From the NCBI RefSeq assembly GCF_000337615.1, contig NZ_AOII01000046.1:660-64659 (forward strand): a DNA stretch of 64,000 nucleotides, read 5' to 3'. Position numbers and translations under genes: made by a program. Shown piece after piece: positions 2,437 to 29,716 of this stretch (the stretch's first letter is position 1; every line of letters starts with the position of its first letter). The DNA is from Natrinema pallidum DSM 3751 (GTDB lineage: Archaea; Halobacteriota; Halobacteria; Halobacteriales; Natrialbaceae). The notes under the pieces are model-generated. The model was not told the DNA's origin. It searched no databases and was given only the letters and a program-made list of their open reading frames with translations.

Positions 2437-3057
2437 ATGAGACGACGCGAACTACTCACTGGCATCGGTAGCGTCGGCGTTCTCACCGGTGGAGCCGGTG
2501 TCGTCCTCGGCGGACTGCCGTCGTTCGGGGACGAACCGGCCGCCGAGTCAGAACCCGACGAGGGATCGGAATGGCCGATCGAGATAGCGACGCTCGACGC
2601 TCGAGGGAGCGAGGCCGGGACGATAGTGGTCCCCAACGACGGGATCACGGTCGCCGAGTTCTTCGTCACGGGCTGTGGCCACTGCCAGGCACAGATGCCA
2701 CGCCTCGCCGAGGCCCAGTCGCGACTCGTCGACGACTACGGAGAGGACCTCACGGTCGTTTCCGTCACCTATCAGTCGACGGACTCGCTCCCGGACGACG
2801 AACTCCGGACGTGGTGGCGAACCCACGACGGCAACTGGGCCGTCGCGCGCGATCCGGAATCGTCGCTGGCGGCACACTACGGCATCATCGGCTATCCGGT
2901 GACGGCCGTCATCGACGAAACGGGCGAGAAACGCTGGGAGAAACTCGGCGTCGAGTCAAGCGACGCCATCGTGCAGGCAGTCGAGGCAGCCTTCGAGTCG
3001 TTCGAACGGGATCACGGACCCTCCGGAACCGCGTCGAACGACTCGACGACGGCCTGA
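2437..3057 (+). CDS. TlpA-like thiol-disulfide oxidoreductase, Tat-exported
   Basis: 206 residues from the ATG at 2437. The N-terminus MRRRELLTGIGSVGVLTGG is a twin-arginine signal/anchor. The mature part is a thioredoxin fold: FFVTGCGHCQAQMPRL carries the CGHC redox pair at about residues 80-83, and GYPVTAVIDETG supplies the cis-proline loop. This places it in the TlpA/ResA/AhpC-TSA group, which reduces or isomerises disulfides outside the membrane, often for cytochrome c or Cox assembly. A GTG-initiated longer form from 2410 exists but would bury the Tat motif. The gene stands alone and converges on topA. The specific client protein is unknown. Confidence 0.85.
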   Translation: MRRRELLTGIGSVGVLTGGAGVVLGGLPSFGDEPAAESEPDEGSEWPIEIATLDARGSEAGTIVVPNDGITVAEFFVTGCGHCQAQMPRLAEAQSRLVDDYGEDLTVVSVTYQSTDSLPDDELRTWWRTHDGNWAVARDPESSLAAHYGIIGYPVTAVIDETGEKRWEKLGVESSDAIVQAVEAAFESFERDHGPSGTASNDSTTA

Positions 3058-3120
3058 TGGGTCGTTTCGGCGTGACTTCGAGCCCGAACGACGGGTGCGC
3101 CGAGAGCCCGACCGAGGACA

Positions 3121-5652
3121 CTACGCCTTCGCCTGCCAAGTCCGGATGCGATCGGCGCTGACTCCTTCAACGTCCTCAGCGACGGCATCAGGGTCGGCGT
3201 CGGTCAGGTCCTCGAGGTCCTCGATCCCCGCGTCGGCGAGTTTCTCGACGGTCTTCGCGCCAACCCCGTCGAGCGCCTCGAGATCGGATCCCGACTCGCT
3301 CTCGCGGGCCTGGAACTCCTGATAGTTACAGATCGGGCAGCCGAGTTCCCAGGGGTCGTCGCCGCTGTGGACGACGAGTTCGGGCAGGTCGTGTTCCGCA
3401 CAGCGCTCGTCGGTGACCTCGATCTCGCCGCGGCGGGGCAGGGGCAGCGAGTACTCGCAGTCGGGGTAGCGCGTACAGCCCACGAGGCGGGAGCCGCTCT
3501 GGAGGGTTTTGACTGCTAACTCGCCCCCGTGTTCTTCCCCGCAGTCCGGACACTCGCCCAGCACCGGCCCTTCGCCGGCGTCTTCGGCCTTACAGAGCGG
3601 GCAGCCGTGGACGAACGTCTGGCGGCCCGCGAGCATCTTGACCTCGTGTAGGTCGTGCTCCGCACACTCCTCGTCGAGGATGAGCGGCTTGCCGGTCGAG
3701 GGCAGCGGCAGCGTGTTCTCGCAGTCGGGGTAGCCGTCACAGCCGATGAAATAGGAGCCGTGGCGGCTCCGGCGCACGAGCAGGTCCTCGCCACAGTCGG
3801 GACACGGTCCCAGCCGCTTGTCGTCTTTGAGCGACTTCCGGAGGTGATCGCCGATCTCCTCGCGCGAGTCCGCGAGGTTCTCGAAGATTTCCTCGAGCAT
3901 CTCGCGAGACTCGTCGGTCACGTCGTCTAAGGTCGCCTCGCCGTTGGCGATGGCGTCCATGTCCGCCTCGAGCTGGGCGGTCATCTCCTCGCTGACGATC
4001 CGATCGGCGTAGCTCTCGGCCGCGTCGACGACGGCCATCGCGAGCTTGGTCGGGCGCGGCGGATCGCTCTCGATGTACCCCCGATCGTAGAGTTTCTCGA
4101 GGGTGTTATGGCGGGTCGACTTCGTCCCGATCCCCATCTCCTCCATGGTCTCGATGAGCCGCGACTGGCCGTAGCGACGGGGCGGCTGGGTCTGTTTGTC
4201 CTCGAGTTCGACATCGGAGAGCGCCAGAGTCTCGCCCTCGTCGACATCGGGGACGTAGTTCTCCGTCGTACTGAAGTACGGGTAGACGTCGTGGTAACCG
4301 GGTTCGACGAGGCGTTTGCCGTTCGCCTTGAGCCGGTGGTCGTCGGTCTCGGCAACGACCTTGAGGTGTTCCCAGACCGCGGCGTCGGCGACGGTCGCGT
4401 AGAACCGCCGGACGACGAGTTCGTAGACCTCCCACTCGTCGTCTGAGATGTCGCCGCGGCTCGGGATCTCGCCGGTCGGGTGAATCGGCGGGTGGTCGGT
4501 CGTCTCCTCGTCGCCTTCCGTCGGCGTGATCTCGTCGGCCTCGAGCAGCGACTCGGCGCTGTCCCCGAGCGACGGATGGCTGACGAACTCGTCTAAGAGC
4601 TCTTCGGGATCGAGGTCGTCGGGATAGACGGTGTTGTCGGTCCGCGGATAGGTAATGTAGCCGGCGGTGTAGAGGTCCTCGGCGATCGACATCGCCCGTT
4701 TGGCCGAGTAGCCGATGGCGCTCGCCGCGCGGATGAACTGGGTCGTGTTGAACGGCTCCGGCGGCGTATCGGTGCGGGTTCGCCGGGTGACGTCGACGAC
4801 GGTCGCGCTCTCGCGCTCGGCGAGCGTCTCGTAGACCTCGTCCGCGATATCTTCCTCCCAGACGCGCTCGGCCTCGTTGTCGTCCTCGTCGCGGTAGAAG
4901 TACTGGGACTCGAAGGCGGTGTCGTCGTCTCGCGGTTCCTCACCGCTCGACGTCTCCGAGGCGCGTTGCGCCTCGCTCTTCGTGAGGTCCGCGAAGATCT
5001 CCCAGTAGTCCTCCGGATCGAAGGCTTCGATCTCGCGCTCGCGATCGACGATCAACTTCAGCGTCGGCGACTGTACCCGGCCGACGGAGATGAAGTCGTC
5101 GCCCAACTGGCCCGCGGACAGTGAGAGATAGCGAGTGAGCGCGGCCCCCCAGACGAGGTCGATGATCTGGCGGGCCTCGCCGGCGGCCGCGAGGTCGAAG
5201 TCGAGGTCGTCGGGTTCGTCGAACGCGTTCTGCACTTCGTTTTCCGTGATCGAGGAGAACCGAACCCGGCGGATCGGTACGTCTTCGTCGACGTTCCGGA
5301 CGATGTCGTAGGCCTCCTTGCCGATCAGTTCCCCCTCACGGTCGTAGTCCGTCGCGATCGTCACGCGCTGTGCCCGACGGGCCAGGAGTCGCAGCGTCGC
5401 AACGATGTTCTCCTTCGTCGCCGTCTTCTCGACGTCGGCACCGATCAACTCGACCGGTTCGACGTCCCGCCAGTCGGAGTACTCCGACGGGAAGTCGACC
5501 CCGACGACGTGGCCCGACAGCCCAACACAGCGCTTGCCGCCCCACTCGTAGATGTTGACGCCGTTCTCTCGGCTCGAGTCGTAGGTCCCGCCGGAAAGGA
5601 TGTCGGCGATCCGGCGGGCCGCGTTGTCCTTCTCCGTGATGATCAGCTCCAC
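3121..5652 (-). CDS. topA: DNA topoisomerase I (type IA)
   Basis: 843 residues. The Toprim domain begins at once (MELIITEKDNAARRIADIL), and the catalytic tyrosine lies in the GYITYPRTDNTVY motif. After the core come four cysteine modules: two classical CPxCG...CxxYPxC zinc ribbons (about residues 605-650 and 695-730) alternating with CAEHDL...GCPxC modules. The protein ends with a helix-hairpin-helix region (LDGVGAKTVEKLADAGIEDLEDL). This is the usual haloarchaeal enzyme that relaxes negative supercoils by transient single-strand cleavage. The start is fixed by the conserved Toprim motif at residue 1. Confidence 0.97.
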   Translation of the reverse strand: MELIITEKDNAARRIADILSGGTYDSSRENGVNIYEWGGKRCVGLSGHVVGVDFPSEYSDWRDVEPVELIGADVEKTATKENIVATLRLLARRAQRVTIATDYDREGELIGKEAYDIVRNVDEDVPIRRVRFSSITENEVQNAFDEPDDLDFDLAAAGEARQIIDLVWGAALTRYLSLSAGQLGDDFISVGRVQSPTLKLIVDREREIEAFDPEDYWEIFADLTKSEAQRASETSSGEEPRDDDTAFESQYFYRDEDDNEAERVWEEDIADEVYETLAERESATVVDVTRRTRTDTPPEPFNTTQFIRAASAIGYSAKRAMSIAEDLYTAGYITYPRTDNTVYPDDLDPEELLDEFVSHPSLGDSAESLLEADEITPTEGDEETTDHPPIHPTGEIPSRGDISDDEWEVYELVVRRFYATVADAAVWEHLKVVAETDDHRLKANGKRLVEPGYHDVYPYFSTTENYVPDVDEGETLALSDVELEDKQTQPPRRYGQSRLIETMEEMGIGTKSTRHNTLEKLYDRGYIESDPPRPTKLAMAVVDAAESYADRIVSEEMTAQLEADMDAIANGEATLDDVTDESREMLEEIFENLADSREEIGDHLRKSLKDDKRLGPCPDCGEDLLVRRSRHGSYFIGCDGYPDCENTLPLPSTGKPLILDEECAEHDLHEVKMLAGRQTFVHGCPLCKAEDAGEGPVLGECPDCGEEHGGELAVKTLQSGSRLVGCTRYPDCEYSLPLPRRGEIEVTDERCAEHDLPELVVHSGDDPWELGCPICNYQEFQARESESGSDLEALDGVGAKTVEKLADAGIEDLEDLTDADPDAVAEDVEGVSADRIRTWQAKA

Positions 5653-6031
5653 CGGGGGTCACCTCCCGCTTCGCGAGCGTCCGGCTGCCGTCGTCGCGGA
5701 CGAGTGTCGGTCATCGTCGGTCGGTACGATTGAGTCGCTGATAACGCTTTCGCCAAAACCGACCGACAGCGCGGGTGTGCGTGTGATCGCGGGCTCGCGT
5801 GGGCGTGTGCGAGAGGACCCTGCGGAACGACCACCCTGCGCCAGCGAGCCGAGGCTGGTTCGACGCGCGAACGAGAACGCAACAGTGAACGAGCCGAAAT
5901 CCGACGGACCAGGACCTCGAGGCGGAAATCCCCTCCGAATGTGCGTTTCCGTGAGTCTCTCACGAAAGTTGTATATGTTCCGATCACGGCTGCGATAGGC
6001 TTTTCACTACCAAGTCATACCACTTAGTTGT
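5653..6031. other. Divergent topA/thi4 intergenic region
   Basis: 379 bases with no supportable gene. Toward thi4, a TATA-like tatatg at 5972-5977 lies 55 bases before the ATG, implying a short leader. The last 30 bases before thi4 contain a loose AAGT...ACTT dyad (within 6001-6030), a possible site for the thiamine regulator ThiR encoded at 17279-18178, but the dyad is weak. I see no THI-box riboswitch sequence. Confidence 0.4.
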
Positions 6032-6961
6032 ATGAGCGAATTCGAGCAGTTCAGTCAGGTCGGCGAAGCCGACGTCACCCGCGCGATCGGACAGGAGTGG
6101 ACCGAGGAGTTCATGGATTTCTCGGACTCGGACGTCATCATCGTCGGCGGCGGCCCCTCGGGGCTGACCGCGGCGAAGGAACTCTCCGAGCGCGGCGTCC
6201 AGACGATGGTCGTCGAGAAGAACAACTACCTCGGGGGCGGCTTCTGGCTCGGCGGCTTCCTGATGAACAAGGTCACCGTGCGTGACCCCGCACAGAAGAT
6301 CCTCGAGGATCTCGACGTGGACTTCAAGCAGTCTCAGGACAGTGAGGGGCTGTACGTCGCGAACGGTCCCGAGGCCTGTTCCGGGCTCATCAAAGCCGCC
6401 TGCGACGCCGGTGCGAAGATGCAGAACATGACCGAATTCACGGACATCGTCATCCGCGAGGACCACCGTGTTGGAGGCATCGTGATGAACTGGACGCCGG
6501 TCCACGCCCTGCCGCGCGAGATCACCTGCGTCGACCCGATCGCGGTCGAGGCCGATCTGGTCATCGACGCGACCGGCCACGACGCGATGGCGGTCAAGAA
6601 ACTCGACGAACGTGGCGTCCTCGACGCGCCGGGCATCGGCGACGCCGAGGCGTCGGCGACCGGTATGGACCAGACCGGCGACGACTCCTACGGCGCGCCG
6701 GGCCACGACTCGCCGGGCCACGACTCGATGTGGGTCGGCAAGTCCGAGGACGCCGTCGTCGAACACACCGGCCTCGTCCACGACGGCCTCATCGCCACCG
6801 GGATGGCTACCGCGACGACCTACGGCCTGCCGCGCATGGGGCCGACCTTCGGCGCGATGCTCGTCTCCGGGAAGCGGGCCGCCCAGGAAGCGCTGAACGA
6901 ACTCGAGATCGATGCCGATCCCGTCGAACTGACTTCGCGCGCGGCTCCCGCCGACGACTGA
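6032..6961 (+). CDS. thi4: Thiamine thiazole synthase Thi4 (cysteine type)
   Basis: 309 residues. A Rossmann NAD-binding motif ([17 protein letters not shown]) starts at residue 35, followed by the family signatures [15 protein letters not shown] and, near the C-terminus, [20 protein letters not shown]. Cys166 lies in ITCVDPIAV, aligned with the sacrificial sulfur-donor cysteine of yeast THI4 (CMDP) and of Haloferax volcanii Thi4. The enzyme is thus expected to make adenylated thiazole from NAD and glycine using its own cysteine sulfur, as a single-turnover enzyme, rather than sulfide as in His-type methanogen homologues. A Gly-His-Asp-Ser linker (GHDSPGHDS) near residue 230 is a halophile insertion. 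Confidence 0.95.
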
Positions 6962-7820
6962 GCAGCGACCAGTTCGGACGTGTGGGTTCGCGGCCGAATC
7001 GAACGCCGGGAAGCGAAACCGCGCCGTTGGTTTCGCGGCCGGTCGACTGAGTGAGGTGTGACTGGTTCGAAGAGGACTCCTCGAGAACCCGCGTCACCGT
7101 TCGCTAGCCCCGCCTGAAACGAGTAACACACTGCTTGCAAACCGTCGTCGATGGGGCGGGTGTGACGTCTCAAAAGAAACGCAAACACTGTTTCCGAGCG
7201 ATCTCGCTAGCCATATCTGACTGATTATTTGCTGAGAGTTACTATCTGTCCTATCGATATATTCGTCTCTGTATAATTCAGCCGACGATCCGTCCCGGGA
7301 TTCGTGACGTGGAGTGAGGCCGGACTGGAACCAGAACCCGGCTCACGTCGCGATCGACGAGCGCGTGCCCGGTTCGACGGCGGTCGGGAGCCTCTGTGCA
7401 CTGTCGCCGACTCCGGTCCGAGCAAGCGACTGGCTGCGAAATACGAGCCGACACCGGCGTCACTAGCCGTTCTTCACTGGTTGTCACGGGCCACACGATC
7501 TCTCCGATACCACGTTATACAGCGCCATGGTGGCATAGTTCGCTGCCCGACGCCGTCAACGACGTGTGACTCCGCTTCCAGAGACGACCGACACGGAGAT
7601 CGGAACGACCCCATATCAGATAACAAATCTGGGAATAAAGAGATCATCGTCGTCTTCGAACTGTTTCGGTACCTCTCGAGAAGAAACTACTAGATGGTTT
7701 CTCTGCTGTTCTCGTTCGCAGTCTCAATCGACGGATGAGTGTCGCTCGGCGTCGGTTCGCCGAACGGAACGTCCCCGGACGATCACGGTGTGGACTGCGA
7801 GCCGACGCAGCGTCGGCGGG
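6962..7820. other. 859-base region without a recognisable gene
   Basis: The frames here have random-looking composition and no family signature. There is an AT-rich patch at about 7205-7280 and another at 7610-7690, either of which could hold promoters or be the remains of old insertions. I see no tRNA, inverted repeat pair or transposase fragment. Confidence 0.5.
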
Positions 7821-9284
7821 TCAGCCGAAGAGTTGACGCATCATCGGGTGCATCTCCATGAGTTGCTCCTCGGCGATTTCCTCGTAGAGTTTGTACGTGA
7901 TGCTCACCGTGAGCAGCAGTGAGGTTCCCGAAATCCCGCCGATGGTGCCGAGCATATTCGCGAGCACGGCCAGGATACCGACGAGCAGGCCGCCGAGGAC
8001 GGCGACCTGCGGGATGTACCGTTCCATGACCTGCTCGATGACGCCGACGTTCTGGCGGAAGCCGGGGATCTGCATTCCGGAATTGTCGATCTGTCGAGCC
8101 GTCGATTCGGGCCCCATATCGGCGGTTTCGACCCAGAAGACCGAAAACACGATCCCGCCGCCGAGCATGAACACGAGGTCGATCGCCACGCGGAGGATGA
8201 CCTGCCAGGGATGCTGTGTCACATTACCAGTCCACCACATCCACTGCCGCGGGGTGTGGATCGGGTTCAAATAATAAAACAGTCCATCGACAGGGCTCCC
8301 GTTCGCGTAGACACCGAGCCACGCGGGGAGGGCGTCTCCGAACTGCCGGTACAGAATGCGTCCGAGGAACTGGATATTGCCCTGTAGCGCGCGGACGAAA
8401 ATCAGCGGGAGGACGCTCGCATAGATGAGTTTGACCGGGAACCGTCCGCGAGCGCCCTTGACTCGAGCATGCGAGAGCGGAATCTCGACGCGAACGCTCT
8501 CGGCGTAGACGACGATCGCAAAGATCAGCAGCGTCGTCAGGAGTCGAACGATGTTGCCGACGCCGAACAGCAACGACTGGAGTCCCGCTTCGGTGAGCGG
8601 CGAGCCGACCTGAATGTCGCCGAGCAGGATTTCGACCCAGGCGGTCACGACGCCGGGTTGCTGGCCGGTGAGTCCGGGAATCGAGAGCAGCCCGCCGATG
8701 AGTTTTTGACTCACGCCGGCGACGATAAAGAGCCCGACACCGCTCCCAACGCCCCACTTGCTGATGACTTCGTCCATGAGCAAGATCAGGACGCCGCCGA
8801 CGAATATTTGAGCGAATATGAGCCACTTGACGACGCTCTGTGGAACGCTCAGTGCGTGAGCGATGCTCGGATCGACCGGCAAGAACCCGCCCGCGAACAC
8901 CATCGGAAGGCCGGTCAGGCAGATCATGACGATCACCAGTAGCTTCTGTAGTCCCTGATAAAGCACCTGATCGCGCGGATCGTCGGTATCGAGCCCCAAC
9001 AGGTTCGCGCCGCCCAACAGCTGTAAGACGATACTCGCAGTCACGATCGGACCGATACCGAGCTGGAGGATCGTCCCCTGTCCACCCGCCAAAATCGATC
9101 GGAACTGACCGAAAATATCGCTTCCCTGATCAGCGCCGAAGAGGTAGACATTGGACAGGAAGAAATACAAAACGAGCGTGCCGGCCGTCCAGGCGAGTTT
9201 CCGACGGAACGGGACGTGTCCCTCGGGGCGGCGGACGGTCGGCATGCGAACGAGGATCGGTTCGGCTGCTTCTTTCCAACTCAT
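7821..9284 (-). CDS. secY: Preprotein translocase subunit SecY (probable paralogue)
   Basis: 487 residues from the ATG at 9284; the N-terminus MSWKEAAEPILVRMPTVRRPEGHVPFRRKL is the usual haloarchaeal SecY start, so the TTG 33 bases upstream is rejected. Ten membrane segments are visible. Conserved channel elements include QLGIGPIVTASIVLQLLGG (plug region), VEIPLSHARVKGARGRFPVKLIYASVLP (loop before TM7), NSGMQIPGFRQNVGVIEQ and the C-terminal EEIAEEQLMEMHPMMRQ. SecY forms the Sec protein-conducting channel with SecE and Sec61-beta. Unusually, no ribosomal protein, adk or cmk gene is near; instead a JAB-like gene and a DUF106 insertase lie upstream on the same strand. This suggests a second, dedicated SecY, but that needs the full genome. 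Confidence 0.93.
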   Translation of the reverse strand: MSWKEAAEPILVRMPTVRRPEGHVPFRRKLAWTAGTLVLYFFLSNVYLFGADQGSDIFGQFRSILAGGQGTILQLGIGPIVTASIVLQLLGGANLLGLDTDDPRDQVLYQGLQKLLVIVMICLTGLPMVFAGGFLPVDPSIAHALSVPQSVVKWLIFAQIFVGGVLILLMDEVISKWGVGSGVGLFIVAGVSQKLIGGLLSIPGLTGQQPGVVTAWVEILLGDIQVGSPLTEAGLQSLLFGVGNIVRLLTTLLIFAIVVYAESVRVEIPLSHARVKGARGRFPVKLIYASVLPLIFVRALQGNIQFLGRILYRQFGDALPAWLGVYANGSPVDGLFYYLNPIHTPRQWMWWTGNVTQHPWQVILRVAIDLVFMLGGGIVFSVFWVETADMGPESTARQIDNSGMQIPGFRQNVGVIEQVMERYIPQVAVLGGLLVGILAVLANMLGTIGGISGTSLLLTVSITYKLYEEIAEEQLMEMHPMMRQLFG

Positions 9285-9496
9285 CGGTACCACGTCGGCG
9301 TCGAATGTAGTCGACAACGATACCCGCGGCCGATAAGAACGGGAGTGTCAGTATGGTATCTCATACGCTTCTCTGGAGTTGATACTCACGCCGCAACCGG
9401 GCGAATCCGCGTCGAAGCGAGCGTCTCGACTCGACGTAGACTGCCGGCTGCCGACTGAGTGCTCGTGTCCGACTTGAGCGAGAGTCGATAAAAATA

Positions 9497-10183
9497 CTAG
9501 TGATTCGCATCCGGCAGCGACTCGTCGGGCGGTACCGCATCGATCACCCGCATCGGACATCGCCGTCCGAACCGATCGAAGGCCGCAATCGAGTCCTCGT
9601 CCCACGGAGGCACGGCGACGAAGACGATCCCGTGGAGATCGTCGCGTTTCGTAAGTCGAAGCTCCGAGAGCGGATGGGTAACGAATCGACCGTGCGTCCG
9701 TGTCGGTGGGATCTGCAATTCCATTCCGAAGACGGTACTGACGGAGTTCCGGCCTTTGGGCAGATAGAAATGCGTGAAGACGGGCATCGATTCGGGGATG
9801 TCGGCGCGACTCGAGATCCGACTGGCGGGCGTCACGGCCAATCCGATCGAAAGCGACTCCGGTTCGGCGCGGCGAGCCGTCTCGAGCAGCGTTTCGAGGA
9901 GCGGCCGCGTGATGTACACCTGATGCCGGTCATCCGTCGGCGAGACCGGCTGTGATGAGAGTGCTGCCGAAACGCCCGTCCGATCACTGGCAACCGCACC
10001 GAGTCCGGCGACGACGCCGAGGAACTCGAGGTCCAGATCGATCGCGATCCCCGGACCGGACACCGGCACGTTCGAGAGGAGATCCATCGTACTTCCGACG
10101 AGGCCGACCGCACACAGACAGACACCGATCGAGAACACTGCACCTGAGAGCCGAGAGTCGAAGTCGATGCTCACAAGCGACAT
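9497..10183 (-). CDS. Membrane-anchored protein with degenerate JAB/MPN-like domain
   Basis: 228 residues. Two hydrophobic segments (GAVFSIGVCLCAVGLVGS and FLGVVAGLGAVAS) occupy the first 70 residues. The rest reads like a JAB/MPN fold: YITRPLLETLLETARRAEPE (opening strand and helix), then VTHPLSELRLTKRDDLHG, where a histidine is followed after seven residues by Thr and then Asp. This mirrors the JAMM pattern H-x7-S-x2-D, but the first histidine of the HxH pair is valine. Metal-dependent isopeptidase activity is therefore doubtful. The gene lies between DUF106 (121-base gap) and secY (212-base gap) on one strand, which suggests a role with that translocon. Family call is inference. Confidence 0.55.
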   Translation of the reverse strand: MSLVSIDFDSRLSGAVFSIGVCLCAVGLVGSTMDLLSNVPVSGPGIAIDLDLEFLGVVAGLGAVASDRTGVSAALSSQPVSPTDDRHQVYITRPLLETLLETARRAEPESLSIGLAVTPASRISSRADIPESMPVFTHFYLPKGRNSVSTVFGMELQIPPTRTHGRFVTHPLSELRLTKRDDLHGIVFVAVPPWDEDSIAAFDRFGRRCPMRVIDAVPPDESLPDANH

Positions 10184-10283
10184 GGTTGAGTGACTCCACC
10201 GGTCGACGGTCGTGCGTCCCGGTCGTCGTATCGACGGACCCGCGCCCGCGGATGCGGTGACCGACCGGAGTCCGATCGGCGTT

Positions 10284-10308
10284 GTAACAATGACTTAGCC
10301 ATTGTTAC
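10284..10308 (-). terminator. Hairpin at the 3' end of the DUF106 gene
   Basis: A perfect 9-base stem (GTAACAATG / CATTGTTAC) with a 7-base loop. It overlaps the TAA stop codon of the DUF106 gene at 10305-10307. No clear T-run follows on the minus strand, so it may be an attenuator or processing site in a three-gene transcript rather than a true terminator. Confidence 0.45.
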
Positions 10309-11201
10309 GAGGATGGGGATGCCGGCTGGATGGCGAGCGTTTTCCGAATGATCTGCCGGGACGCCATCGAGCACAGGAAGTACCAGACGATCCACGTCGC
10401 CATCGGACCGACGAGGGGGTCTTGCCACGAGACAGCGCCGGCAAGCGGAACGACGAGTCCGGTCTCGCCGGCTCCGAGGTGTCCGCCACGGACCTTCCAA
10501 CGGAGCCAGAGGAACACCGGAATCGTCAGCAACATGATCCAGACCATCGGTCGGAACTGCAGTTTGAACATGCCCAGTTGATCGCCGGCGGCCGCCATCT
10601 GTTCTTCCCGAATCCGCTCGAGCGCTTCTTCATCGCCCCGTTCTTTGGCCGCTTTCTGTCGCTCTTGCAGGTCGCTCATCCGCTCCTGATACGCCTGTAA
10701 CTTCTCGGTGTTCGTGAGCCGCGCCTGTAGAACGGTCGAATAGAGGCCGGTCACGATCGCGAGGAGGATGATGACCGCGTAAAACGGGAGGGCATCGGTG
10801 ATCGGTGCGAGAACGAGATCGTCGACCGACGCGACCGTATTCCGAATCCCCGTGTTCCAGTATCCCATAAAGAAGGCGAGTGCCGTCAGCCCGACCGCCT
10901 TGTCGTACCAGGCCCACGGTTCGGCTTCGATCTCGTCCTCGTTTTCGTCCGGTCCCGAACCTTGGTCGGTGTCCTCGAGTTCTCGCTGGATGCGGTTCGG
11001 GTCGGCGAGCACGAATCCGCTGCTCTCCGCCACGAGCGTCCCGGTTCGGATCAACCGTCCCCACTGGTCACTCGATAGCGCGTCACTCACGTCGGCCCAC
11101 TGCAACTCCTCGCGTCCACTGTCGCTCCGTTCGAACACGACTGCGATGGCGTCACGCATCGCTGGCTCCTCGAGAAGCGACGCTAACTGCGGTTCTGGCA
11201 T
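10305..11201 (-). CDS. DUF106 membrane insertase (EMC3/TMCO1 homologue)
   Basis: 298 residues. A soluble N-terminal domain (residues 1-80, LQWADVSDALSSDQWGRLIRTG, winged-helix-like) precedes an acidic linker and the membrane domain: TM1 around VGLTALAFFMGYW, TM2 LPFYAVIILLAIVTGLYSTVLQ, a charged coiled-coil (NTEKLQAYQERMSDLQERQKA...), then FRPMVWIMLLTIPVFLWLRW and WIVWYFLCSMASRQIIRK. This is the archaeal DUF106 family of the Oxa1 superfamily, related to EMC3 and TMCO1, which inserts membrane proteins. In haloarchaea a DUF106 gene normally sits near the ribosomal secY with adk and cmk. Here it pairs instead with the stand-alone SecY, so it looks like a paralogous partner. Confidence 0.88.
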   Translation of the reverse strand: MPEPQLASLLEEPAMRDAIAVVFERSDSGREELQWADVSDALSSDQWGRLIRTGTLVAESSGFVLADPNRIQRELEDTDQGSGPDENEDEIEAEPWAWYDKAVGLTALAFFMGYWNTGIRNTVASVDDLVLAPITDALPFYAVIILLAIVTGLYSTVLQARLTNTEKLQAYQERMSDLQERQKAAKERGDEEALERIREEQMAAAGDQLGMFKLQFRPMVWIMLLTIPVFLWLRWKVRGGHLGAGETGLVVPLAGAVSWQDPLVGPMATWIVWYFLCSMASRQIIRKTLAIQPASPSS

Positions 11202-11639
11202 AGCCGTACGTAGACGTTATCTCAGAGAGTTATCAACGCTTCCCATCGTCGGCGACCGAGAACCGAAGCGACTGCGAGTCGAATCCGCCAGCGAGACACG
11301 CACGACCGATACGGGAGTCAGCAACGACACCGTACGGTCGCTGGGACCGAACTCGCGAGCAGGACAACAGGGTTGGAACCGAAGACCGTCGGCCGGCGAC
11401 GACTCGTGGTTCGGCACTCTGGGCAACGGTTACCGAGCCGACGTGGTGAGACGGAGCCGTAACAACCACTAAGTCATTGTCAAGGCAGGATCGGGCTGGA
11501 CCGGGACCAGGGGTACTCCTCCGATCGGAGCGCGTCGGTCCGCAGGCCGCGGCACGACGTGTCGTCCGACTCGTTCCAGCTGAGAACAGGGGGACGCGAC
11601 CTGTCGTGTGCCTCGCGGGTAACACCGACTCTCCGCGGG
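11202..11639. other. Intergenic region without recognisable gene
   Basis: 438 bases. No frame has a family signature or convincing codon pattern. It presumably includes the promoter of the DUF106 gene (AT-richer stretch at 11208-11235). Confidence 0.4.
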
Positions 11640-11858
11640 TCAAATATCGATCTCGACGGTTTCGGTTTCGGTACAGTTCGGACACGTTAACCGATAGAGG
11701 ATGTGGCCGGACCTGGGTTCCGTCTCGACGTGTGTTTGCCACTCGCTGTCGAGGACGGTGTCTTCGAAGCCACAGCCGTGACACGTCTGTCGCTTGTGTT
11801 CCAGACTCTTCGTAAACGCGTCGACTCCCTTCTGGTGGTGCTCGGTGAAGTCGCTCAT
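11640..11858 (-). CDS. Small zinc-ribbon protein
   Basis: 72 residues from the ATG at 11858 (MSDFTEHHQKGVDAF); a GTG codon directly before it is not needed. CHGCG and, 30 residues later, CPNC make a four-cysteine zinc ribbon (CxxC...CxxC) around a strand-rich middle (TEPRSGHILYRLTC). It resembles the short haloarchaeal HVO_0649-type zinc-finger proteins. Its role is unknown; such proteins are suspected to mediate nucleic-acid or protein contacts. AT-rich promoter DNA lies upstream (11880-11925). Confidence 0.7.
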   Translation of the reverse strand: MSDFTEHHQKGVDAFTKSLEHKRQTCHGCGFEDTVLDSEWQTHVETEPRSGHILYRLTCPNCTETETVEIDI

Positions 11859-12011
11859 CACGTGAGTATATCAGCCCGACTCACTTAACCATATCTAAAA
11901 ATATACATTGATATACTAGACGGTCGTCCCGACTCTCCTGTCCGCACCTGTCCATGGGGCGCGCATTCACGGCGGACCCGGCAGCTTGCCCACGGAAGCG
12001 GCGGACCTGAC

Positions 12012-13799
12012 TCAGGACGCTGTCTCGGCGTCGATGTCGTGGGAGACGACCTGCCAGTCGGCCGGCGACAGTTCGTGACCGTCGAACCCCTCGTGTTCGG
12101 GATACGCCGTGAGGACGAGATACTCGGCTCGGTCCCGCAGATAGTCGACCAACGTTCGGAGGTTGTCGCTTGCCAGCCCACCGAGACCGTCGAGGAGCAA
12201 CACCGGAACGCGCTCGTCGACGTCGAACGCGTCGTGGCCAGCGACCGCTGCGACGAGTCCCAGGACCTCCCGTTCGCCCTCGCTGAGCGCGTCCAGTCGC
12301 GCTTCGCGGCCGTCCCGGGCGACGACGAGGTCGAACCCGCTCGTAAGACGGGCCGTCTCGAATCCCGTGTCGAATCGCTCCAGGAGGTCGTTGAGCGCGG
12401 TCGAAAACGCCTCGCGGGTGCGCCGTTTGATCTCCGTCTTGCGACCCCTGAGTTCGGATATCTCCGCCGTCAGCGACGCGTACTCGTCGTCCAGCGTCGA
12501 CAACTGGTCCGCCTGCGCCTCGGCGTCCTCGAGATCCGCACGAACCTCCGCTAACTCCGTTTCGGTATATTTGATCTCGCTTTCCAGTTCCAGCACTCGC
12601 TCTTCGGTCGCGTCCACCGCTTCGGCGAGTGTCTCGATACGCGACGCCAGTTCCGACCGCCGTTCCCGGGCGCTTTCCAGACTCTCTTCGGTCTCTGCCA
12701 GTCGCGATTCGAGAGCGCCGATACGATCGGTGAGTTCCGTCTCACGCCGGCGAGCCTGCCGAATCTCGTCGCGTTTCGCTTCGAGCGTTGCGACTCGCTC
12801 CCGGTACTCGTCGGCTTGCGAGTCGAGTTCCCCGATCCGCTCGTCGAGCGCCGCTAACTGCGCCTCGATCTCGTCGCGTGTGGCATCCTCGCCGCAGAGC
12901 CAGCACGTTACTGTGTCCGCGAGCACGTCGTGGGAAACGTCGGTCAGCAGTTCGGTGCGACCCTCATCGAGGACGCGCTTGTTCGCCTCGTAGACCGACT
13001 GCAACAGTTCGACGTCCCGCTCTACGTCACGGCGATCCTCGTGGAGCGTCTCGAGTTCGCGTTCGATGTCCTCGCTCGATGGAACCGAGAGCGCCTCGAG
13101 TTCGGCTTGCGTCTCCGACAGCGTCTCGCGGACGCGCTCGGCAGTCGTCTCGAGGCGGTCGATGCGGGAATCGATGCGATCGCGCTCCACGCGCAGTTCG
13201 CTCAACTGGTCTCGGGAGTCCGAGCTACCGCCGGTCTCGTCGTCGAGATCGGCTCGCTGGGCGTGCAGTTCGTCGAGCGTCGACTCGAGGTCCGTTACTC
13301 GAGTCCGGAGCTGTGGCAGTCGGTCGGCGGCGTCCGCCGCTCGGTCGCGTTCCGTCTCGACCCGTTGTCGTTCCGCTTTCAGGTCGGCGATCCGTTCGTC
13401 GATGTTTTCGAAATCCAGCGGCCGCGTGAGGAGGTGGTCGATGGTCTCGCCGTTTCGAACGGCCCGTCGGATCTCGTTGGTTTCGTCGAGCGACGCGAAC
13501 AACGTCGCGCACACCCGATCGTATTCGTCGTGGAGATACGGGGTTCCCGTCCGGGAGACTGACCCGTCCGTCCGCTCGAGGGTGACGGCGATCTCGTCGT
13601 CGGCCGTGGTGACGGTGACCCGACCGGTCGCCTGCCCCTCGGTGAGCGGCGTCGCCGTGCCGAGCGCCGTTTCGATGCTCGCGAGAAAGCTGGATTTCCC
13701 CTGCCAGTTGGACGCTCGGACGACGTTTACGCCCGGTTCGATGCGTGCCTCTCCCTCCCGAATACCGGCGATGTTCTCGATGGAGAACTGCCACGTCAT
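12012..13799 (-). CDS. Archaea-specific SMC-related (mini-Rad50) ATPase
   Basis: 595 residues. The ABC ATPase head is split between the ends: Walker A NWQGKSS at residues 31-37 near the N-terminus, and signature LSEGEREVLGLV followed by Walker B VPVLLLDGLGGL near the C-terminus. Between them lie two long Glu/Arg-rich coiled coils flanking a zinc hook CWLC (Cys299 and Cys302), the Rad50 dimerisation element. The protein is about 300 residues shorter than Rad50, and no Mre11 gene is adjacent. Its start overlaps the rdfA stop by four bases (ATGA), so the two are co-translated. This matches the SMC-related proteins that accompany RdfA in haloarchaea. It probably acts on DNA or on chromosome or cell-shape control with RdfA. 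Confidence 0.88.
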   Translation of the reverse strand: MTWQFSIENIAGIREGEARIEPGVNVVRASNWQGKSSFLASIETALGTATPLTEGQATGRVTVTTADDEIAVTLERTDGSVSRTGTPYLHDEYDRVCATLFASLDETNEIRRAVRNGETIDHLLTRPLDFENIDERIADLKAERQRVETERDRAADAADRLPQLRTRVTDLESTLDELHAQRADLDDETGGSSDSRDQLSELRVERDRIDSRIDRLETTAERVRETLSETQAELEALSVPSSEDIERELETLHEDRRDVERDVELLQSVYEANKRVLDEGRTELLTDVSHDVLADTVTCWLCGEDATRDEIEAQLAALDERIGELDSQADEYRERVATLEAKRDEIRQARRRETELTDRIGALESRLAETEESLESARERRSELASRIETLAEAVDATEERVLELESEIKYTETELAEVRADLEDAEAQADQLSTLDDEYASLTAEISELRGRKTEIKRRTREAFSTALNDLLERFDTGFETARLTSGFDLVVARDGREARLDALSEGEREVLGLVAAVAGHDAFDVDERVPVLLLDGLGGLASDNLRTLVDYLRDRAEYLVLTAYPEHEGFDGHELSPADWQVVSHDIDAETAS

Positions 13800-14554
13800 A
13801 ACGGGATAGCAGCGGTCGCGACCGCCTCGACGAGGTACGGGTCTTCGAGAAGGGCCGTCCGAATCCCCTCGAGGAGTCCGTACGGAACCGCGAGGAGGGA
13901 CAACGCGTTCCGCCCCTGCTCCCGCATCGACTCGTCCGGCTCGGCGTCGACGTGCGTCTCACAGACGTACCCGCGTTCGACCGCGTCCGCGAACGGGACC
14001 CGAACCGAACACTCCGGACAACTCAGTTTGACCTGTACGTCGACGTCCGCTTGCTCCCCGTTCCGGAGACGGCCCTTCGAGGTGAGCGACGACAGTACCG
14101 ACTGGGCCTTTTCGGTGGCCCGTTCGCGAGCCATCCGGACGGTGTCCGTCTCCCAGTCCGTGTCCGCCGACTGCGTGTCCTTTTCGGCCTCGAGACAGTC
14201 CTTGAGGTGGTGACGCATCGTGCTCCAGGAGGGCAGTTCGCTATCGATCTCGTCGATATCGAGCCCATCCGTGGCGAGATCGGCCGCGAGTTCGTCGCGG
14301 TGGAGCGTTTCCTCGCCCGTAATGAGTTCGTATTCGCGGTCCAGATGGACGGTGACGGTATCTCGGTCGTGCTCCTCGTAGAGCCGTTTCAGGAGCCGTT
14401 TGTTGAACCACTCCGTGAGGGCTTTGTATCCGTCGGCGGACCGGCCGTCCGAACCGGTCCAGCGCGCCACCAGATACTCGTTGACGGAATCGTACTCCGG
14501 GACGGGGACGGTCAGAGAATGGCGTTCGATAAGGGTATCGACCTTACATCCCAT
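13796..14554 (-). CDS. rdfA: RdfA family protein (rod-determining factor)
   Basis: 252 residues. The opening GCKVDTLIERHSL and the following LVARWTGSDGRSADGYKALTEWFNKRLL match the RdfA family, named for a Haloferax volcanii factor needed for rod-shaped cells. The C-terminal part holds a zinc-ribbon-like set (Cys179, Cys182, Cys198, His201) after a helical middle. The arrangement (HTH-like N-terminus plus zinc site) suggests a DNA- or protein-binding adaptor for the downstream SMC-related ATPase, whose start codon it overlaps. Haloarchaeal genomes often carry several RdfA/SMC pairs; which pair controls shape here cannot be told. An AT-rich promoter-like tttatt sits about 35 bases upstream. Confidence 0.85.
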   Translation of the reverse strand: MGCKVDTLIERHSLTVPVPEYDSVNEYLVARWTGSDGRSADGYKALTEWFNKRLLKRLYEEHDRDTVTVHLDREYELITGEETLHRDELAADLATDGLDIDEIDSELPSWSTMRHHLKDCLEAEKDTQSADTDWETDTVRMARERATEKAQSVLSSLTSKGRLRNGEQADVDVQVKLSCPECSVRVPFADAVERGYVCETHVDAEPDESMREQGRNALSLLAVPYGLLEGIRTALLEDPYLVEAVATAAIPL

Positions 14555-15240
14555 CGTTGTGGTCTGTTCGAACGGAGGGTCCGACCGCTAATAAACGTGA
14601 TTACTACACGCCCGGACCGTCCGGAAACGGGGCAATCGCGCTGACGGCGTGGCCTCCGGGAACTCTCGCCGCCAGTCCCGCGCAGCTACGGCAGTTTGCT
14701 TGTGAACCGCGCCTTATAGTAGGTGGTATGATGTAACACTCATAGAGGTATTCATGGAATCATATGATTTTGGGGCAGGAGACCGGAACCGGGATACTAG
14801 CAACCGATACAGCGGTCATGATCGTCCTCCGGCGGTCGTCTTCGTACAACCTCCAACCGGTCGCCGAGCCCATTGTTCGCACACACATCGCGTTCAACTG
14901 GACTAGCGGCGCGTAGTCGGTTTCCCCCGAGAGGGACAAACCAACTGTCGGGCGGTCTCGAGTCGTCGGACTGGGTTCGATGGAAGCGGTCTCATCCGAA
15001 CTGCTCTCGTCTCGGCGTACGGATCGCCGAACGCAACTAACCATAGTATATCATATCATTCGGTGAAATAGTACTGTTATTTATGTATCGGGTCTCTGAG
15101 TGAGCGGCCGGTTTCGGTTGTGAGACACCGATCTCGACCCAGCCGTCGGTACGCGGACCGGCCCGCGATTCATGCCGCTCGAGGCGACGGCTCCCATCCC
15201 GCCGTCGACGGGGCGACCGATCGAACCACAATTGTTTCAC
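14555..15240. other. Intergenic region without recognisable gene
   Basis: No convincing coding frame. It has AT-rich stretches at 14710-14770 (cttatagtagg and following) and 15035-15095 that look like promoters without an obvious downstream gene, so a small RNA is possible but unsupported. The nearest genes are rdfA (leftward) and the DUF6775-like gene (rightward). Confidence 0.4.
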
Positions 15241-15256
15241 CCAGTGGTACCACTGG
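15241..15256. promoter_or_regulatory. Perfect 16-base palindrome before the start codon
   Basis: CCAGTGGTACCACTGG is perfectly self-complementary and ends 7 bases before the ATG at 15264. In a haloarchaeal promoter this position is the transcription start/early leader, where a repressor dimer would block transcription. It is a candidate operator; the regulator is unknown. Confidence 0.45.
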
Positions 15257-15263
15257 CTAGTAT

Positions 15264-16031
15264 ATGGTCGAACGTCTCATCTGCTATCGATCACCCTCGA
15301 CGACGGCCGCGGTCGACGACATCGCAGCCTGGCTGCGGGCGCGGCTCGACGCGACTGTGGCCGTCCGCGATCGGTTCCTCGATGTCCACCGCACGGACGA
15401 CCTCGCCGAGCGGTTCGCCGAGGCGCGAGTTCCATCCCCCTACGAGCGCGAGACGGGCAACACGATGCTCGGTACGATCCGATACGAGGAGCGGGCGCTC
15501 GAGACTCCCGATCGCGAGGGCGGGGTTCTCTACGACGGCGTCGGGGTACAGCGCGCGCTCAACGCCGCGCTCCCCGCCGACGAGCGCGGACTCGAGACGC
15601 TGCACGTTGCGATTCTCGACCGCGCCATCGGGACGTGGGGCGACCACGACGGGCGCTGGCACAAGCGCGTGACCGTCCCCGGCCAACCGGCGCTGGTATC
15701 GGTTCCGGGGCTCTACGAGGCCCCCGCCAAGCCCGAGGCCTACTATAAGGAAAAACAGCGCCACGCCCTCCTCTCCGGCGACGCGCCGCCGCGGGAAGTC
15801 CTCGAGAACCAGGTCAACGGCGACTTTCTGGTCGCCGACGACCCGCGGACCACCGAGGCCCTGAAGGGGTACGTGCTGCAGGCGTTTCACTACCTCGAGA
15901 CCGGCGAGGCGTTCTGCGACCGGGAGGACTGTCGGCTCTTCAACGCCCACCGGCAGCCGGAACTGATCGACGCCCAACTTCGTGACCCCGCGTTCTGTGC
16001 CGCCCACGCCGACCTGTACGATCGACCCTGA
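15264..16031 (+). CDS. Hypothetical protein, DUF6775-like (putative metallopeptidase annotation)
   Basis: 255 residues. No signal peptide or membrane segment. The C-terminal third has GYVLQAFHYLETGEAFCDREDCRLFNAHRQPELIDAQL...FCAAH, a cysteine/histidine-rich tail reminiscent of archaemetzincin C-termini and of the haloarchaeal DUF6775 family, annotated as putative metallopeptidases. However, there is no HExxHxxGxxH zincin motif in this protein, so peptidase activity is not supported by what I can see. The middle YDGVGVQRALNAALP and YEAPAKPEAYYKEKQ are probably family-specific. The start codon follows a 16-base palindrome that may be its operator. Confidence 0.6.
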   Translation: MVERLICYRSPSTTAAVDDIAAWLRARLDATVAVRDRFLDVHRTDDLAERFAEARVPSPYERETGNTMLGTIRYEERALETPDREGGVLYDGVGVQRALNAALPADERGLETLHVAILDRAIGTWGDHDGRWHKRVTVPGQPALVSVPGLYEAPAKPEAYYKEKQRHALLSGDAPPREVLENQVNGDFLVADDPRTTEALKGYVLQAFHYLETGEAFCDREDCRLFNAHRQPELIDAQLRDPAFCAAHADLYDRP

Positions 16032-27386: not shown

Positions 27387-28274
27387 TTACTCCGCCGGCC
27401 TGCGTCCGGTGATCGACGCGGAGACGATGTACTCGTCCAAATCGCGGTCATCACCCCACTCGCGAAGGAACTCCTGTGTCTCGTCTTCGGGTTCGATTCG
27501 AACGTCCTCGAATCCCGCTTCGGTGAGTTGCGATTCCAGTTCCGTGACCGGCGACGCGCCACCGATACACTCAGCGACCGAGTCGAGATCTGCACGTAAG
27601 TTCACGGGAAGTTGATCGCCCAGAACGATGTCCGAAATCGCGAGTCGTCCACCGGGACGAAGTACTCGATAGGCCTCATCAAAGACCTGTTGCTTGTTGG
27701 GCGAGAGATTGAGCACGCAATTGGAGATGATAACGTCAACGGTCTCGTCTCCCACGGGAAGATGTTCTATTTCACCGAGCCGAAATTCTACGTTCTCGGC
27801 ATCACTGTCCGCGATATTCCCTCGAGCCGTTTCGATCATCGCCGGTGTCATGTCGACGCCGATCACGGTGCCGTCGTCGCCGACCTCGTTTGAGGCGAGG
27901 AAACAATCGAACCCACCGCCGGAACCGAGATCGAGGACGGTTTGACCCGAGTCCAGATTCGCGATCGCGGTCGGATTCCCGCATCCGAGGCCGAGATTCG
28001 CTTCCGTCGGAGCCGACGCTATGTCATCGGCGTTGTACCCCACTTCTGCCGCCCATTCTTCCGAGGACTTGTCGTTCGTGCAATAACCGGTCAGTGACGA
28101 TTCGTCCGCTTCAGCGTTCGGCCGGTCTTCTGTCCCGGCACAGCAATCGGTCGTCGTCTCCGACCCACAATCTTCCTCGTCGGCCGCAACTTCGGTGTAC
28201 CGATCACGGACTGTCTCGTGTTGTTCATTAGCAGTGACGGTCGACTCGTCTTCTGATGCGGTGTTTTCGGACAT
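27387..28274 (-). CDS. arsM: Arsenite S-adenosylmethionine methyltransferase
   Basis: 295 residues. SAM-binding motif LDLGSGGGFDCFLA sits at residues 114-127. The As(III)-binding cysteines are visible: Cys65 (LTGYCTN), Cys186 (ISNCVLNLSPNK) and Cys236 (AECIGGAS), matching the ArsM family. An acidic N-terminal extension carries Cys36 and a Cys44-Cys45 pair (TTDCCAGTED); Cys-pair extensions occur in many prokaryotic ArsM. The enzyme methylates arsenite in the cytoplasm. It is the last gene of the operon that runs 29890 to 27387, 86 bases after the permease. Confidence 0.93.
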   Translation of the reverse strand: MSENTASEDESTVTANEQHETVRDRYTEVAADEEDCGSETTTDCCAGTEDRPNAEADESSLTGYCTNDKSSEEWAAEVGYNADDIASAPTEANLGLGCGNPTAIANLDSGQTVLDLGSGGGFDCFLASNEVGDDGTVIGVDMTPAMIETARGNIADSDAENVEFRLGEIEHLPVGDETVDVIISNCVLNLSPNKQQVFDEAYRVLRPGGRLAISDIVLGDQLPVNLRADLDSVAECIGGASPVTELESQLTEAGFEDVRIEPEDETQEFLREWGDDRDLDEYIVSASITGRRPAE

Positions 28275-28360
28275 TGGTAATCTCTGTAAGTTGTGCTATA
28301 TTCGATCCGAGGCCAGCACTCGATCACAGTAGTGATTCGTTTTCATCGTAATTATCCATA

Positions 28361-29317
28361 TCAGGCGATAACGAGGTTGAATATCGTTCCGACGGCGATA
28401 CCGATCACGACGACAGTTCCGCCGTACACGAGCAACAGTCGTCGTTTGAACAGCTTGTTCAGGAGTATCAGGTTCGGGATACTTACGCCGGCACCGCCGA
28501 TGACGAACGCGAGAACGGTTCCGACGGCGATCCCCTGTTCGCTCAACGAGGCCGCGATGGGGAGCATTCCGCTGAGGCTGACGTAGACGGGTGCACCGGC
28601 GAGTGCGGCCAGTGGCACGGCCAGCGGATTCTCGGAACCGAGTACCGTCTGTAGCGTGGCAGCGGGAACGGCCCCGTGAATCAGCGCGCCGATTACCATT
28701 CCGACAATAAGGTAGGGGAGCGTATCCACGAAGAACGTCCACGCCTCGCGTGAGGCCGTTTTGAGGTGTTGTACGTGGGTTGATTCGGCGTTCGCCGTCC
28801 GTCCGGCACAGCAATCAACGGAGCCACCGTCCGCTGCGACGGTCCGATCGTCGTCCACGATACGAACGTCTTTCACCTGATCACTGAGCCCTAACCGGCC
28901 GATGACAACGCCACCGACGACGGCCGCACTGAACGTCATGACGATGTACCAGACGGTCACTTCGACGCCGAACAGGCCGACGAGCAGGACTACGGCGATC
29001 CAGTTGACGAGCGGCGACGCGAGCAGGAACGAAAAGGCGAGTCCGAGCGGTGCACCCGCCTGAAGTAGTCCCGCCAGGACGGGAACGGTCGAACACGAAC
29101 AGAACGGCGTCACCGATCCCAGTCCGGCTGCGGCGATATTGCCGGCGCCGTCGTCGTGACCACGGAGCGTTCGTTCGACTCGCTCCGGAGGAAGGTACTC
29201 CTGTGCGAGACCGACGAGAAACGATGCACCGATGAACAGTGGAACGAGCAGTACTGCGAGGTGCACGAAGTACTCGCCCGAATCGATCGCTGCATCGACG
29301 ATGTTCGGTGGAATCAT
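28361..29317 (-). CDS. arsP: ArsP-like permease (DUF318 family)
   Basis: 318 residues, about eight membrane helices. The motif [26 protein letters not shown] (Cys73 and Cys75) and its partner [22 protein letters not shown] are the signature of the ArsP/DUF318 permeases, which export trivalent organoarsenicals or related metalloids. A soluble central loop (about residues 145-180) contains VDCCAGRTA, a Cys169-Cys170 pair outside the canonical motif. It lies 15 bases after arsR and before arsM, so the product of ArsM (methylated As(III)) is the logical substrate. A general metal permease of the same family is the alternative. Confidence 0.8.
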
Positions 29318-29332
29318 CGCACAGTACCTCGG

Positions 29333-29716
29333 TCAGTCGTCCTCCCGAATCGCGTCCGCGAGGTCGAGCAGTTCGAATACCGCGGTGTCGGCGATCCGGT
29401 AGTAGTTCCACTTCCCTTTTCGTCGTGACTTCACCAGTCCCGCGTCCCTCAATTTGCGGAGATGAGTCGCGACCGTCGACTGCGGCGCGTCCAGAACGAC
29501 CTGCAACTCACAGCCACAGCACTCGGACTCGCGCAAGGCCTCGAGAACGCGAAGCCGGTTCTCGTTTCCGAGAGCCTTAAAGACGGCCTCGCGATCGGTG
29601 ACATCCCGTTCGGACGATCGGACATCCTGCAAGTCGGCGATGCGTTCCTCCGGATCGTCGTACAACCGCTCGAGGGCGTCGTAGACGTCGTCAGGGGGCG
29701 TGTTTGATTCGGACAT
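29333..29716 (-). CDS. arsR: ArsR family arsenic-responsive repressor
   Basis: 127 residues. Winged helix-turn-helix: AVFKALGNENRLRVLEALRESECCGCELQVVLDAPQSTVATHLRKLRDAGLVKSRRKGKWNYYRI. The metal site ECCGCEL (Cys66, Cys67, Cys69) corresponds to the ELCVCDL arsenite site of classical ArsR, here with an extra cysteine. It should repress the operon until As(III) binds. It is the second gene, 21 bases after the Cys-pair small protein; the palindrome at 29891-29900 is a candidate operator. Confidence 0.9.
   Translation of the reverse strand: MSESNTPPDDVYDALERLYDDPEERIADLQDVRSSERDVTDREAVFKALGNENRLRVLEALRESECCGCELQVVLDAPQSTVATHLRKLRDAGLVKSRRKGKWNYYRIADTAVFELLDLADAIREDD

Follow-up and report, generated by a model that had tools for sequence, protein, structure and literature searches.

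Why should a haloarchaeon carry a second SecY channel together with an Oxa1-superfamily insertase, outside any ribosomal-protein context? The question is raised by positions 7821–11201 of a 64,000-nucleotide stretch of DNA (hereafter the window) from Natrinema pallidum DSM 3751 (contig NZ_AOII01000046.1, positions 660 to 64,659). Here, the genes for a SecY protein (SecY2), a JAB-like membrane protein (TM-JAB), and a DUF106 protein of the EMC3/TMCO1 family (DUF106-2) lie in a row on the minus strand with no ribosomal-protein, adk, or cmk gene as neighbor. This arrangement, noticed in a preliminary description of the DNA, is borne out by Pfam and NCBIfam matches and by a JAMM/MPN fold in the middle protein. 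To our knowledge, archaea almost always have a single SecY gene, and accessory SecY systems have been described in bacteria. The trio turns out to form half of a six-gene cassette that is a horizontally moved insertion. The interpretation we favor, at a probability of roughly 0.52, is that the trio constitutes the membrane-protein-insertion half of this cassette, a mobile accessory translocon serving a subset of membrane proteins.

A trivial answer, namely that these are the only copies of their kind, does not apply, since the genome (3.9 Mb in 115 contigs) holds exactly two SecY genes and two DUF106 genes. The search suggested in the preliminary description, for a further secY next to rpl15, gave a positive result: the housekeeping pair resides on contig C67, where secY adjoins rpl15/rpl30 and the DUF106 gene adjoins cmk. 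The six cassette genes (rdfA, ASRP, zinc finger, DUF106-2, TM-JAB, and SecY2) all occupy the minus strand and are the only genes carried by an 8.3-kb insertion between thi4 and a DUF6775 gene. These two flanking genes are only ~12–17 bp apart in three congeners (genomes G003, G026, and G020), and homology to the congeners ends at window position 6961 and restarts at 15264. The G+C content mostly amounts to 0.58–0.65 within the insertion versus mostly 0.65–0.70 in the flanks, and the G+C content at third codon positions is likewise lower in insertion genes (0.78 in SecY2 versus 0.86 in canonical SecY). The same insertion occupies the same site in Natrinema altunense AJ2 and N. gari; direct repeats were looked for at its ends and none were found. 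Other, unrelated insertions occupy the thi4–DUF6775 junction in further congeners (locus L181 of genome G009, 2719–11380; locus L182 of genome G005, 8095–10025), so the junction may be an integration hot spot. Two parts of the preliminary description need revision. Instead of being simple duplicates of host genes, SecY2 and DUF106-2 derive from distinct clades and belong to a horizontally moved unit. The set is also not self-contained: the cassette lacks a SecE gene, each genome having a single credible one, and the trio is embedded with rdfA, ASRP, and the zinc-finger gene.

Across the order, 13 of 394 genomes contain a complete second SecY: three Natrinema-type genomes, two Natrialba, four Haloarcula, one metagenome-assembled genome (QH_7_65_31), and three members of the Haloferax group. 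All 13 second SecYs adjoin TM-JAB, with a second DUF106 and the rdfA–ASRP pair within about 13 kb, the set of QH_7_65_31 being split over two contig ends. Four further loci lie on named plasmids of Haloarcula pelagica, Haloferax alexandrinus, and Hfx. lucentense and on a contig of Halohasta litorea; TM-JAB adjoins SecY2 in 17/17 loci. The proposed set, in which a SecY is joined by an Oxa1-superfamily insertase of its own and by one more membrane protein, is indeed linked and conserved in three haloarchaeal families, often on megaplasmids. Apart from this adjacency, the surrounding genes are rearranged between lineages: the gene order is DUF106 - ... - JAB - SecY - APC - ABC - rdfA - ASRP in Haloferax, and JAB–SecY is divergent from rdfA in Halohasta. 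The expected co-occurrence of the three genes across Natrialbaceae holds wherever a second SecY is present, but the set is rare there, being confined to Natrinema and Natrialba, and extends to Haloarcula, Halohasta, and Haloferax. Presence of a second SecY coincides with that of an RdfA bearing a hydrophobic tail (see below) far beyond chance (rough Fisher p about 3e-19, relatedness not corrected). Additional second SecY matches in genomes G214, G312, and G348 were rejected as split or truncated canonical copies, and a supposedly decayed second secY in G019 as fragments of the canonical copy, located where its contig ends.

SecY2 is a full-length archaeal SecY/Sec61-alpha including the plug (Pfam SecY 2.5e-68, plug domain 3.7e-11; NCBIfam SecY equivalog, 335 bits). 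Its start is likely the ATG at 9284 rather than the upstream TTG at 9317, since the N-terminus then fits canonical haloarchaeal SecY. The protein is 98/97% identical to its N. altunense/N. gari counterparts and 68–71% identical to the canonical SecY of its own genome. It is under strong purifying selection, with a ratio of nonsynonymous to synonymous substitution rates of 0.05–0.07 versus 0.14–0.17 for canonical SecY. A comparison of plug and lateral gate between the two copies, as proposed in the preliminary description, revealed that SecY2 keeps the plug region, the lateral-gate asparagine (N303), the pore-ring hydrophobics (I77, V81, V183, I187, I295, and L458), and the ribosome-facing cytosolic loops. 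Only two alignment columns carry a canonical-rare residue in both SecY2 groups of the tree, a post hoc observation. L296F, found in 17/17 SecY2 and elsewhere only in two deep-branching canonical sequences (families f9/f11), corresponds to L261 of Methanocaldococcus jannaschii SecY, adjoining pore-ring I260; G455S, found in 16/17 SecY2 and 0/41 canonical SecY, corresponds to G403, which precedes pore-ring L406 by roughly one turn. The two groups comprise the SecY2 of Natrinema, Natrialba, the metagenome-assembled genome, Halohasta, and Haloferax (99/98) and that of Haloarcula, which clusters with Haloarcula canonical SecY (100/99). The tree favors two origins, and a single SecY2 clade is formally not rejected (p-AU 0.0525); SecY2 may possibly have arisen by two recruitments, or by one plus gene conversion.

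These data also bear on the idea that SecY2 adds capacity as an interchangeable spare, or that it is an altered replacement channel conferring resistance to a SecY-attacking agent such as a halocin, with DUF106-2 and TM-JAB travelling along. About 219/245 strictly conserved canonical columns are intact in SecY2, both signature changes affect the pore constriction, the site of action of channel blockers in other systems, and the distribution is patchy and mobile, all as such a spare would predict. Nevertheless, the invariant TM-JAB neighbor, the constant link to DUF106-2 and rdfA–ASRP, the clade-specific substitutions in DUF106-2, and the lack of a known SecY-directed halocin within the cassette make this explanation unlikely.

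DUF106-2, the second component, matches Pfam EMC3_TMCO1 at 1.9e-43 (148.6 bits) and the Mj0480 structure at 9e-11 over residues 128–295, and exhibits the three transmembrane helices and cytosolic coiled coil of this domain. It forms one clade (96/90) spanning families and separate from canonical DUF106, with the signature N161R, Y234R (29/29), T282R (29/29), and G124A, i.e., three added arginines. The Mj0480 alignment predicts that residues 161 and 282 are close to the cytosolic ends of the first and third transmembrane helices, respectively. A lone DUF106-2 branch, lacking rdfA and SecY2, was observed between the genes for PCNA and an RlmE-type methyltransferase in the Natrinema group (loci L079, L080, and L084 of genomes G026, G014, and G022).

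TM-JAB, the component between them, is a protein of 228 amino acids without a Pfam match, whose two N-terminal membrane helices resemble DUF7860 (hhalign 95.6%). Its C-terminal domain shares the fold of AfJAMM, its closest match, and of other JAMM/MPN proteins, as indicated by an AlphaFold model searched with Foldseek (6e-7) and by a profile hidden Markov model compared with the PDB (4.7e-5). In contrast to these enzymes, it is fused to two membrane helices and lacks an intact metal/catalytic motif (E...HxH...D): HxH reads V168-T-H170 and the base glutamate is missing. The defect recurs in all 13 TM-JABs aligned, where the first histidine is replaced by Val, Ile, or Leu and the catalytic glutamate is not conserved; judged by these residues, the MPN domain is a catalytically dead pseudo-JAMM. 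Soluble haloarchaeal relatives share the defect. They constitute a family of about 140–150 amino acids (e.g., locus L045, 1492–1947) that is present in 108/119 haloarchaeal relatives, is single-copy in nearly every genome searched, and has no Pfam or NCBIfam model. EMC8/9 was considered as the nearest MPN relative of TM-JAB and rejected, being outside the 50 best fold matches and without support in the literature searched. Several cassettes, among them the majority of those without TM-JAB, contain a free DUF7860 gene; DUF7860-like two-helix hairpins accompany DUF106-2 either free or fused within TM-JAB. The cassette locus of Halobaculum magnesiiphilum contains a broken TM-JAB relic.

The other half of the cassette is built around RdfA and an archaea-specific SMC-related protein (ASRP), whose genes adjoin each other. 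No other part of the cassette is as constant as this pair. In the close rdfA clade, the flanks could be read at 18 loci; DUF106-2 lies within about 7 kb in 16, and seven of these 16 are without SecY2/TM-JAB. A hydrophobic tail of 48–62 amino acids follows the zinc motif in 22/22 cassette RdfAs versus 1/24 other RdfAs. The RdfA core was confidently modelled, and its fold gave no match below E 2.9 in the PDB. The zinc-finger gene is kept in place in most cassettes. RdfA and Sph3 are required for rod shape in Haloferax volcanii, and 78% of RdfA genes adjoin an SMC-like gene (PMC10869688). The cassette resembles the H. volcanii pair in that rdfA adjoins an SMC-like gene; it differs in its tailed RdfA and in the additional zinc finger, DUF106-2, TM-JAB, SecY2, and palindromes. 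A second rdfA–ASRP pair of the cassette clade (70% identical) was encountered in the same genome (G000, contig C24, 39225–39971; loci L097/L142). It has an APC permease and a TrkA-like gene close by and lies at the end of its contig, which stops before a DUF106 gene could show. TATA-box-binding-protein paralogues lie inside some islands (L093, 12530–13093; L096, 6923–7483; L098, 9139–9693), two of them adjoining the zinc-finger gene.

The constancy of the rdfA–ASRP pair, the rod-shape role of its Haloferax relatives, and a tail missing from 23/24 other RdfAs would also be compatible with a module for cell shape or cell organization, in which RdfA–ASRP is at the heart and SecY2, DUF106-2, and TM-JAB merely deliver its membrane-bound parts. 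We regard this as rather improbable, as the cassette RdfA belongs to a clade other than the one tested in H. volcanii, and a shape system has no obvious need for its own SecY. Given a mobile, megaplasmid-borne unit with an SMC-like ATPase as possible effector and accessory membrane genes, a defense or plasmid-maintenance island could be envisaged as well, and PADLOC yielded weak matches to SMC-type defense ATPases. These matches, however, are of the generic coiled-coil kind, none concerned RdfA, DUF106, SecY, or TM-JAB, and a search of phage records gave no match to the cassette, rendering such an island highly improbable.

A further element shared by the cassettes is a 25-bp palindrome with the consensus TAACAAnnnCTWAGnnnTTGTTA, two copies of which occur in the window where zero are expected. 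It was detected in 22/23 cassette loci, usually upstream of DUF106-2, at the DUF106-2 stop codon, and upstream of TM-JAB. Apart from weak matches in two of about 40 control loci, it was not found in empty sites, stand-alone DUF106-2 loci, or other rdfA clades, the palindromes of the latter being only G+C-rich, chance-like matches. The possibilities of an RNA or single-stranded DNA hairpin and of an attC-like site were rejected, as neither outer nor inner pairs covary. Since paired positions do not covary, a dimeric protein-binding site in duplex DNA is the likelier candidate; the placement at module ends would also suit a role as recombination boundary.

How, then, might the cassette work? The data establish genetic linkage, mobility, purifying selection, protein folds, and signature changes; what follows on the complex, the sharing of SecE, the clients, and the palindrome is inference. 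We propose that SecY2 would be a working channel that pairs with the single SecE of the host, and that DUF106-2 would act beside it as a diverged Oxa1-superfamily insertase, as TMCO1 does with Sec61. TM-JAB may serve as a membrane adaptor with a dead MPN domain. Genes for multispanning transporters (APC-USP permeases, ABC-2 pairs, PiT, MATE, and TrkH) recur on the islands, as does halocyanin; the most likely clients would be such transporters, the hydrophobic tail of the RdfA encoded in the cassette itself, or both. The particular link to Tat-independent proteins once suggested has found no support. RdfA–ASRP would couple the translocon to cell organization or regulation, with the palindrome as a candidate site for a binding protein. 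Several observations weigh against an accessory translocon. The association is a genetic one, with no tie to a defined client. DUF106-2 occurs without SecY2 and TM-JAB in the seven cassettes mentioned above and is found by itself, surrounded by housekeeping genes, in about nine genomes (in several Natrialbaceae as a sub-branch of its clade), so it does not require SecY2. With spacings of 121–212 bp, the trio genes do not evidently form an operon, and redundancy of SecY2 is possible since its functional core differs little from that of canonical SecY. A more far-reaching version would combine all elements: a transferable archaeal translocon in which a re-tuned SecY, an EMC3/TMCO1-type insertase, and a DUF7860–MPN adaptor form one complex, switched through the shared palindrome and coupled to a membrane-tethered RdfA–SMC pair. 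Megaplasmid islands entering a cell would thereby supply the machine that builds their membrane proteins. Taken as a whole, this version appears doubtful.

The coordinates of all features are compiled in Table 1. Elsewhere in the window, an ArsR-type regulator, an ArsP-type permease, and a methyltransferase lie in a row (27387–29716) and likely constitute an arsenic resistance set. The topA gene of N. altunense AJ2 (genome G008; locus L076, 13723–17859) is interrupted in frame by a long segment that is probably an intein and from which the window copy is free.

Table 1. Features of the cassette insertion and its flanks in the N. pallidum window
Feature	Position	Strand	Basis
thi4, left flank of insertion	6032..6961	+	
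Insertion (mobile unit) between thi4 and DUF6775 gene	6962..15263		Comparison with G003, G026, G020; G+C
SecY2, second SecY/Sec61-alpha, 487 aa	7821..9284	-	Pfam and NCBIfam
TM-JAB, two-helix transmembrane hairpin (DUF7860-like) fused to MPN/JAMM-fold domain	9497..10183	-	AlphaFold2 model, Foldseek, HMM versus PDB, hhalign
Palindrome, about 100 bp upstream of TM-JAB and overlapping the stop codon of DUF106-2	10284..10308		
DUF106-2, paralogous EMC3/TMCO1-type insertase	10305..11201	-	Pfam, tree, signature residues
Palindrome, upstream of DUF106-2	11459..11483		
Zinc-finger protein, CxxC, 72 aa	11640..11858	-	NCBIfam HVO_0649 zinc finger, below cut-off
ASRP, archaea-specific SMC-related protein (Sph3-like), 595 aa	12012..13799	-	NCBIfam NF045487, 467.6 bits (cut-off 300)
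RdfA (rod-determining factor A family), 252 aa, hydrophobic C-terminal tail	13796..14554	-	Pfam PF21811 5.1e-37
DUF6775/DUF7001 gene, right flank of insertion	15264..16031	+	

The closest parallel among known systems is the eukaryotic multipass translocon, in which Sec61 works with TMCO1–OPTI (GEL), PAT, and BOS and whose possible counterparts in archaea have been discussed as a proposal (PMC9630114). Both feature a SecY/Sec61 channel tied to a DUF106/TMCO1-family insertase with a two-helix hairpin protein alongside. The cassette, in contrast, is an extra mobile set besides the housekeeping pair, is associated genetically only, and has no PAT or BOS; its hairpin would be a candidate for an OPTI/EMC6/GET2-like partner of the insertase. 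With canonical archaeal SecY and DUF106 of the Mj0480 type the cassette pair shares families, folds, and core residues, but it falls into separate clades with signature substitutions, is sparse, and has no ribosomal-protein context. The role proposed here, a second SecY for a subset of substrates, is that of the bacterial accessory Sec system (SecA2/SecY2). The two systems are not homologous, however: the fully listed cassette contents include neither a SecA-like protein nor a glycosylated adhesin, and the partner is an Oxa1-type insertase. While SecY, DUF106, and RdfA–SMC are known families, an archaeal accessory translocon set seems to be undescribed, and no description of a second haloarchaeal SecY or of the cassette was found in the open-access literature.

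A mobile second SecY with DUF106-2 would offer a natural, non-essential genetic system for testing whether archaeal SecY and DUF106 act as one translocon. Because the housekeeping pair is essential, it lends itself poorly to answering this question, which matters for how the eukaryotic multipass translocon and EMC originated. In addition, the cassette would give a branch of the RdfA–SMC family a role and a candidate DNA site.

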